From an uncultured Ectothiorhodospiraceae bacterium (GTDB lineage Bacteria > Pseudomonadota > Gammaproteobacteria > Nitrococcales > Nitrococcaceae): DNA of 47,678 nt. Of the stretch, positions 33,351 to 33,617 are shown piece after piece. The position numbers were made by a program, and so were the translations under genes. The notes below the pieces were generated by a model that had not been told where the DNA came from, did no database searches, and worked only from the letters and a program-made list of their open reading frames with translations. Within the stretch, counting starts at the first letter, position 1, and the number at the start of each line of letters is the position of its first letter. Location: contig CAJXND010000012.1 in the NCBI GenBank assembly GCA_913056385.1, positions 1-47,678 on the forward strand, read 5' to 3'.

Positions 33351-33441
33351 GGAGAGGTGTCCGAGCGGTCGAAGGAGCGCGCCTGGAAAGCGCGTGTACG
33401 GTAACCCCGTACCGAGGGTTCGAATCCCTCCCTCTCCGCCA
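33351..33441 (+). tRNA. tRNA-Ser (anticodon GGA)
   Basis: A class II tRNA of 91 bases. The acceptor GGAGAGG pairs with CCTCTCC (33431-33437). The anticodon loop CTGGAAA sits in a GC stem, giving anticodon GGA. A long variable arm (TACGGTAACCCCGTA) and the T arm GAGGGTTCGAATCCCTC follow. CCA is encoded at 33439-33441. The sequence closely follows E. coli tRNA-Ser(GGA). A long terminator hairpin and copies of the T arm lie downstream. Confidence 0.96.
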
Positions 33442-33479
33442 GATACGAAAGCGGCCCCACCGGGGCCGTTTTCGTATCT
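33441..33479 (+). terminator. Terminator of tRNA-Ser
   Basis: AGATACGAAA-G-CGGCCCC pairs with GGGGCCG-T-TTTCGTATCT around a 3-base loop, forming an 18-pair hairpin with one G-T pair and an internal T run (33469-33472). Like the tRNA-Arg terminator it begins at the last base of CCA and has a CGAAA/TTTCG outer arm. Confidence 0.85.
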
Positions 33480-33490
33480 GACAGTGCCCG

Positions 33491-33617
33491 GGGTTCGAAC
33501 CCTCGGTACAGACAGACAATGGGTTCGACCAATCGCCGCTGGCGATTGGGACGCCGAGCGGAGCGAGGCGCCCGAAGGGTGAGGCCCGAAGCATGAGGGC
33601 CGAATCAATCCCTCCCT
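33491..33617 (+). repeat. tRNA-Ser-derived repeat element
   Basis: 33494-33509 is a perfect 16-base inverted copy of tRNA bases 33409-33424. It continues through GGG (33491-33493) with the T-loop base T33425 missing, making the palindrome GGGTTCGAACCC. Next come GGGTTCGACC (33521-33530), GAGCGGAGCGAG, and GAGGCCCG...AGGGCCGA (33581-33603). Last is a direct copy AATCCCTCCCT (33607-33617) of tRNA bases 33423-33433, 184 bases apart. The same blocks in the same order occur behind tRNA-Arg at 917-1010. The GNAT gene starts just after. Confidence 0.8.

Follow-up and report, generated by a model that had tools for sequence, protein, structure and literature searches.

A tRNA-associated repeat of the rtT kind contains a separable palindromic core that is probably mobile DNA

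Introduction

Why are two unrelated tRNA genes followed by the same composite sequence? The 47,678-nucleotide stretch of DNA analysed here (the window) comes from an uncultured, salt-loving Ectothiorhodospiraceae bacterium. A sequence-only reading of it had described the same blocks in the same order behind tRNA-Arg(ACG) and tRNA-Ser(GGA), and had proposed a family of small tRNA-associated elements that copy host tRNA sequence. The rtT repeats behind the tRNA-Tyr of Escherichia coli have been known for decades and, to our knowledge, their origin was never clear. We report that the family is not wholly new, being of the rtT/RtT kind known from the E. coli tyrT operon. What is new is that its hairpin insert, here called E, is separable from the tRNA-derived parts of the unit.

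Results

Two units of shared anatomy

Both tRNAs and all of the blocks named by the sequence-only reading were found in the window. Two covariance models were used in the annotation: R1, built from 23 units from outside E. coli, and R2, restricted to E. The features are as follows.

788..864, + strand: tRNA-Arg(ACG), intact host gene (ARAGORN, Rfam RF00005)
864..907, + strand: CCA-abutting terminator hairpin of the Arg unit (ATATGACGAAAG..TTTTTTCGTCATAT)
918..938, + strand: inverted T-arm/variable-region copy of tRNA-Arg (825-847 versus 925-947, 87% complementary)
950..957, + strand: direct T-arm 5' half GGGTTCGA of the Arg unit, with the E insertion point directly after it
958..1001, + strand: hairpin insert E of the Arg unit, short 44-nt form (R1 match 917-1006, 41 bits)
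1002..1020, + strand: direct copy of the tRNA-Arg 3' tail, AATCCTCCCGGGCGCGCCA
1020..1120, + strand: second terminator and decayed second Arg unit (direct repeat of 85% identity, spaced by 156 nt)
33351..33441, + strand: tRNA-Ser(GGA), intact host gene (ARAGORN, Rfam RF00005)
33440..33480, + strand: CCA-abutting terminator-like hairpin of the Ser(GGA) unit, identical in sequence behind Ser(TGA) of the same genome
33490..33509, + strand: inverted T-arm/variable-arm copy of tRNA-Ser(GGA), containing GGTTCGAACC (versus 33409-33428, 95% complementary)
33521..33528, + strand: direct T-arm 5' half GGGTTCGA of the Ser(GGA) unit
33529..33606, + strand: hairpin insert E of the Ser(GGA) unit, 78 nt (R2 63.3 bits, E value 6e-11; R1 121.6 bits)
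33607..33617, + strand: direct remnant of the tRNA-Ser 3' tail (AATCCCTCCCT), ending short of CCA

In general, a unit follows the CCA of the tRNA with a terminator-like hairpin and then an inverted copy of the T-arm 5' strand, which takes in the end of the variable region. A short linker leads to a direct half of the T-arm that closes on TTCGA; E comes next, and the unit finishes with AATCC and the remaining tRNA 3' tail with its CCA, after which it may recur in tandem. Since the T-arm half ending in TTCGA precedes E and AATCC follows it, E lies within the T-loop of a T-arm copy. It is 66-90 nt long and forms four hairpins, whose loops are often GNA or GNNA; the Arg unit of the window has the 44-nt form. 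In the Ser(GGA) unit the stems lie at about 33529-33549, 33551-33573, 33571-33579 and 33583-33601. The string GGGTTCGACC is exact in both window units (950-959 and 33521-33530), and the GAGCG/GNA palindromes and GAGGCCCG..AGGGCCGA are present in both, ahead of the tRNA-tail copy. The first description is corrected in two respects: the hairpin that abuts the CCA resembles a terminator, and a second terminator and a decayed second unit belong to the Arg array as well. The second Arg terminator (1038-1066) includes a good sigma-70-like match (CCGACA-17-TATAAT).

The shared blocks exceed chance similarity. A model trained on other loci (one same-genome paralogue included), without the two window units, scored 33486-33611 at 121.6 bits (E value 3e-32) and 917-1006 at 41 bits (E value 1e-9). 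These scores, together with the placement behind tRNAs, rule out random GC-rich resemblance.

The blocks recur at three further tRNAs of this 1.95-Mb draft genome of 86 contigs, so that the refuting condition set by the sequence-only reading, their absence from all other tRNAs, does not hold. About 35 tRNA genes were seen in it. Arg(ACG), Ser(GGA) and Ser(TGA) are followed by complete or almost complete units, Ser(TGA) by one and a half in tandem; Ser(GCT) has a truncated unit, and the single unit at Gln(CTG) runs off the contig end. Contigs C21, C42, C50 and C45 stop at or just past a tRNA 3' end (Gly-GCC, Arg-TCT, Asn-GTT and Gln-CTG, respectively), as expected if such repeats break assembly; these ends are probably collapsed tandem units.

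The inverted T-arm follows the adjacent tRNA

The relation of each unit to its own tRNA was assessed at 68 loci covering 12 tRNA isoacceptors, with 300 permutations of the tRNAs. The summed match of the inverted arm to its own tRNA was 558, compared to 350 +/- 13 for permuted tRNAs (maximum 384). The direct T-arm 5' half (208 versus 186 +/- 3.5) and the 3' tail (695 versus 563 +/- 13) also track the adjacent gene. These results strongly support a family whose members have a common core and tRNA-derived ends that are specific to the host tRNA. The tRNA pieces are duplicated host sequence, and the idea that the element itself copies them gained no support.

It had also been proposed that both inverted copies lack exactly the same T-loop base. 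Within the window, the perfect palindrome GGTTCGAACC occurs only at the Arg and Ser(GGA) units. The missing base is not universal: the units of E. coli tRNA-Tyr and of tRNA-Gln in the window's genome carry GGATGAGAAGC or GGATGAGAACC instead, and the base is retained in units of some other tRNAs. The apparent gap is how a palindrome with its centre at TTC|GAA looks.

The units are divergent relatives of rtT

At the RF00391 gathering score (45 bits), no RtT match was detected in the window or elsewhere in its genome; the window copies are therefore not filed as formal RtT members. The Rfam model does align over its full length to each of the two tandem units in an array from the same genus, in phase and on the same strand, at a sub-threshold 26.9 bits. 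In the reverse direction R1, from whose training E. coli was excluded, recovers each of the three K-12 rtT units (E values 3.4e-8 to 3.8e-9), as does R2 (4e-4 to 9e-4). The K-12 locus contains the same parts, including the inverted T-arm GGGGAAGGATGAGAAGCTTCGA. On these sequence comparisons, the window units are homologous to rtT and built alike.

The likeness extends to details of layout. In rtT (RF00391, gene rttR of the E. coli tyrT operon), tandem units of about 178 bp lie behind a tRNA and include a tail copy with CCA, an inverted T-arm, the T-arm 5' half GGTTCGA and a hairpin core with CCCGAAGGGCGA. Tandem units behind a tRNA with its 3' tail were likewise found here, at Arg and Ser(TGA), and 95 of 120 R1 matches are placed behind tRNAs. 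While the E. coli repeat is associated with tRNA-Tyr and has the inverted arm GGATGAGAAGC, the present units are found at Ser, Arg, Gln and other tRNAs, mostly with GGTTCGAACC; here the unit also encloses a terminator-like hairpin, and the window copies score below the Rfam gathering threshold.

Distribution of the family

R1 matched 109 of 274 gammaproteobacterial genomes and gave no match in the other 165; RF00391 exceeded its cut-off in 18 of the 274. The 95 tRNA-associated matches lie within 250 nt downstream of a same-strand tRNA (eight of them as later units), and the remainder mostly fall at the edges of contigs or within tRNA copies that are interrupted. Six kinds of tRNA serve as hosts (Ser, Arg, Tyr, Gln, Glu and Pro), and most tRNAs carry no unit. 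Beyond the Gammaproteobacteria, convincing cases adjoin tRNAs in genomes labelled as Acidobacteria, Aminicenantes, Phycisphaerales and Opitutae. In Verrucomicrobiota, 12 of 194 genomes reached the R1 cut-off, but the weak matches below about 35 bits mostly do not adjoin a tRNA and were left out of the count. In E. coli, 4,680 of 5,426 genomes contain between one and nine matching places (median two). In Salmonella, rtT is known as a 175-bp VNTR (PMC2658671). An archaeal motif from the literature on sequences downstream of tRNA genes (PMC5217627) is unrelated. A blastn search of phages and plasmids gave no match at the sensitivity used, and a phage- or plasmid-borne origin was rejected.

At L185 (G153:C11:27000-42000), accessory genes lie between the units and tail copies that follow tRNA-Ser(GGA) (3849-9210 and 14490-14657). 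Among these genes are two AbrB/MazE-like ORFs within a 300-nt repeat of 89% identity; the locus looks like a tRNA integration hot spot. At L037 (1405-1556), the Rfam family sX4 (RF02223, 'Proteobacterial sRNA') gives a sub-threshold alignment to tRNA-Ser and the first part of the unit. Judging from this alignment, sX4 may represent a tRNA-Ser followed by a trailer of this kind.

In Spiribacter, units at different Ser tRNAs within one genome are somewhat more alike than units at the same tRNA between genomes. For E, the within-genome value was 0.123 compared to 0.155 across genomes (permutation p 0.008), too modest a signal for strong concerted evolution, which was rejected. Two loci labelled 'uncultured Spiribacter' (L104 and L106) contain the same units as the same-genus relatives L045 and L093.

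E is a separable insert

E also interrupts complete copies of tRNA-Ser, tRNA-Arg and tRNA-Gln that lie beside an intact gene. Some of the R1 matches that lacked an upstream tRNA turned out to be complete tRNA genes broken in the T-loop by E, with an intact copy adjoining (L053 and L116); tandem E-interrupted copies lie upstream of the intact tRNA-Gln (L193) and tRNA-Arg (L186); and in one case, a tRNA-Ser (L192), E occupies the D-loop. Removal of E in silico restored the tRNA at four interrupted sites. Apparent restorations at L140 and L198 were false, arising from a real tRNA joined to the tail of a later unit.

A scan of 20 genomes with R2 located E away from tRNAs in several of them; in the window's genome R2 found E at tRNA sites only. 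In nearly all sites read, the left flank ends in a constant GA and the right flank begins with A. The clearest case is a 245-bp repeat of genome G160, present in dozens of uninterrupted copies and split in several others at position 133/134. In three split copies both flanks could be matched; E fills the interval between these flanks with exactly 72 nt, and no base is duplicated or lost. As all split copies share one position, they prove one precise event that was later copied, so that precise insertion after GA is established at at least one place. The repeat itself is an inverted-repeat element (CCCGGATATTGCACCAAGG..., e.g. 1625635-1625879 of G160:C1), several copies of which bear E. At L241, a 72-nt E sits in frame in two copies of one gene type (777-848 and 4320-4391). 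The L241 ORF ends ..SGVARTLSEVAEREGMDRAYVSRMVNL; its flanks joined without E would read VESG. The moving part appears to be the shared core E only, found also at non-tRNA places.

No transposase tied to E was found. The suggested check for an encoded recombinase revealed none linked to the units, and Y1 transposases are absent from the window's genome. Over the 274 genomes, Y1 transposase and E show a weak, confounded association (odds ratio 2.5, p 0.001), and with the enzyme missing from the window's genome a Y1 transposase was rejected as the mover.

IS200/IS605-derived elements have subterminal hairpins, insert 3' of a fixed short motif and produce no target duplication. The split 245-bp repeats show precise insertion with no target-site duplication, as for a non-autonomous element of this type, and in its subterminal hairpins and its position 3' of a short motif E resembles REP/BIME and PATE elements. 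It differs in that no Y1 transposase is linked and the constant motif is only GA, while the family target is 4-5 nt. E also resembles Rickettsia palindromic elements (RPE), short palindromic mobile DNA that can sit in frame within an ORF (PMC10969869), and other prokaryotic MITEs, being likewise short, palindromic and, in the L241 ORF, in frame. Unlike RPE, E is about half the size, follows GA, lacks both target duplication and an established terminal inverted repeat, and occupies tRNA loops in Gammaproteobacteria and a few other phyla.

Pairing in the E stems

The E hairpin stems covary (0.266 versus 0.094 when shuffled); double, paired changes are common and one-sided changes are rare. In a strict count of the two well-defined stems there were 916 Watson-Crick pairs, 3 G-T, 2 A-C and 1 other pair, compared to 33 G-T and no A-C among 624 pairs of the tRNA stems. 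This pattern points more to perfect DNA palindromes than to a tolerant RNA helix; such palindromes could result from template switching or from selection acting on the folded DNA strand. A covarying tandem GA motif has been reported in RtT RNA (Rivas 2020, PMC7657543). It is visible in the present units too, and is compatible with both the DNA and the RNA view.

Discussion

We consider it probable that the units are divergent rtT-type repeats whose core E is mobile palindromic DNA of about 66-90 nt that occupies the T-loop of a redundant, partial copy of the tRNA beside the intact gene. E would insert as a folded strand into loop sequence, at TTCGA^ATCC in the T-loop or GCTGA^ in the D-loop, and only insertions into redundant tRNA copies would survive. 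A unit of tail, terminator, inverted T-arm, T-arm 5' half and E could then grow into a tandem array by unequal recombination between identical tails. The inverted T-arm may derive from fold-back copying of the T-arm, and selection or palindrome-directed correction would then keep it matched to the tRNA. If the read-through transcript has a role, it would be a secondary one. Weighing against this view, no transposase is tied to E, the split 245-bp repeats record a single event, and in the window's genome E was found at tRNAs only. More tentatively, rtT repeats may be the scars of a widespread mobile DNA hairpin that inserts as a folded single strand into tRNA T- and D-loops, with survival only of insertions in redundant tRNA copies and the inverted T-arm formed by fold-back copying of the target tRNA at the event.

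The main competitor, which we regard as somewhat unlikely, is a selected RNA: read-through of a leaky terminator would yield a processed rtT-like RNA, with the hairpins and the inverted T-arm, that either has a regulatory function as a small RNA or forms a trailer controlling tRNA maturation. In the tyrT operon of E. coli, rttR carries a small-RNA annotation, the stems covary as described, and the structure is sensible only on the tRNA-sense strand (GNA loops, GA...GA flanks), with some stem loops of the form A(N)GGA resembling CsrA sites. Unit order is kept across classes; such long-range conservation counts against the mobile DNA view and suggests some selection on the whole unit, and an RNA role would also explain the covarying GA motif in RtT RNA (PMC7657543). 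However, the stems are nearly without G-U, E is also present in a protein gene and a non-tRNA repeat, the unit is missing at most tRNAs and in 165 of 274 genomes, and its copy number in E. coli ranges from 1 to 9. A DNA-level mobile palindrome is favoured because the stems are almost purely Watson-Crick and the loops are often GNA.

There are two further explanations. Tandem duplication of the tRNA 3' part, combined with palindrome-directed template switching, could give perfect hairpins and a matching inverted T-arm as a neutral by-product that requires no mobile element, in keeping with the double changes and few single-change intermediates in the stems, the palindrome centred on TTC|GAA and the likeness of same-genome E copies (0.123 versus 0.155, p 0.008). 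We think this unlikely, as it does not account for a common E core that recurs at different tRNAs, inside a gene and within a repeat whose empty sites are precise. Less probable still is that the T-arm dyads are integrase core sites and the tails attL/attR-like, making the units scars or docking sites of integrative elements. While direct tRNA-tail repeats flank every unit and in one genome accessory genes, AbrB-like antitoxin ORFs among them, separate the units, the 72-nt E inserted without a direct repeat, units are far too short for an integrase and form plain tandem arrays in many genomes, and phages and plasmids gave no match at the sensitivity used.

The present analysis places rtT in a family seen in more than one third of the sampled gammaproteobacterial genomes, most of which the current Rfam model misses. 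It also calls for caution, since this element may account for assembly breaks next to tRNAs, for 'pseudo-tRNAs' and for some of the small RNAs in current annotation. With the repeat resolved into tRNA-derived duplications and a probably mobile palindromic insert, the origin of rtT becomes testable.
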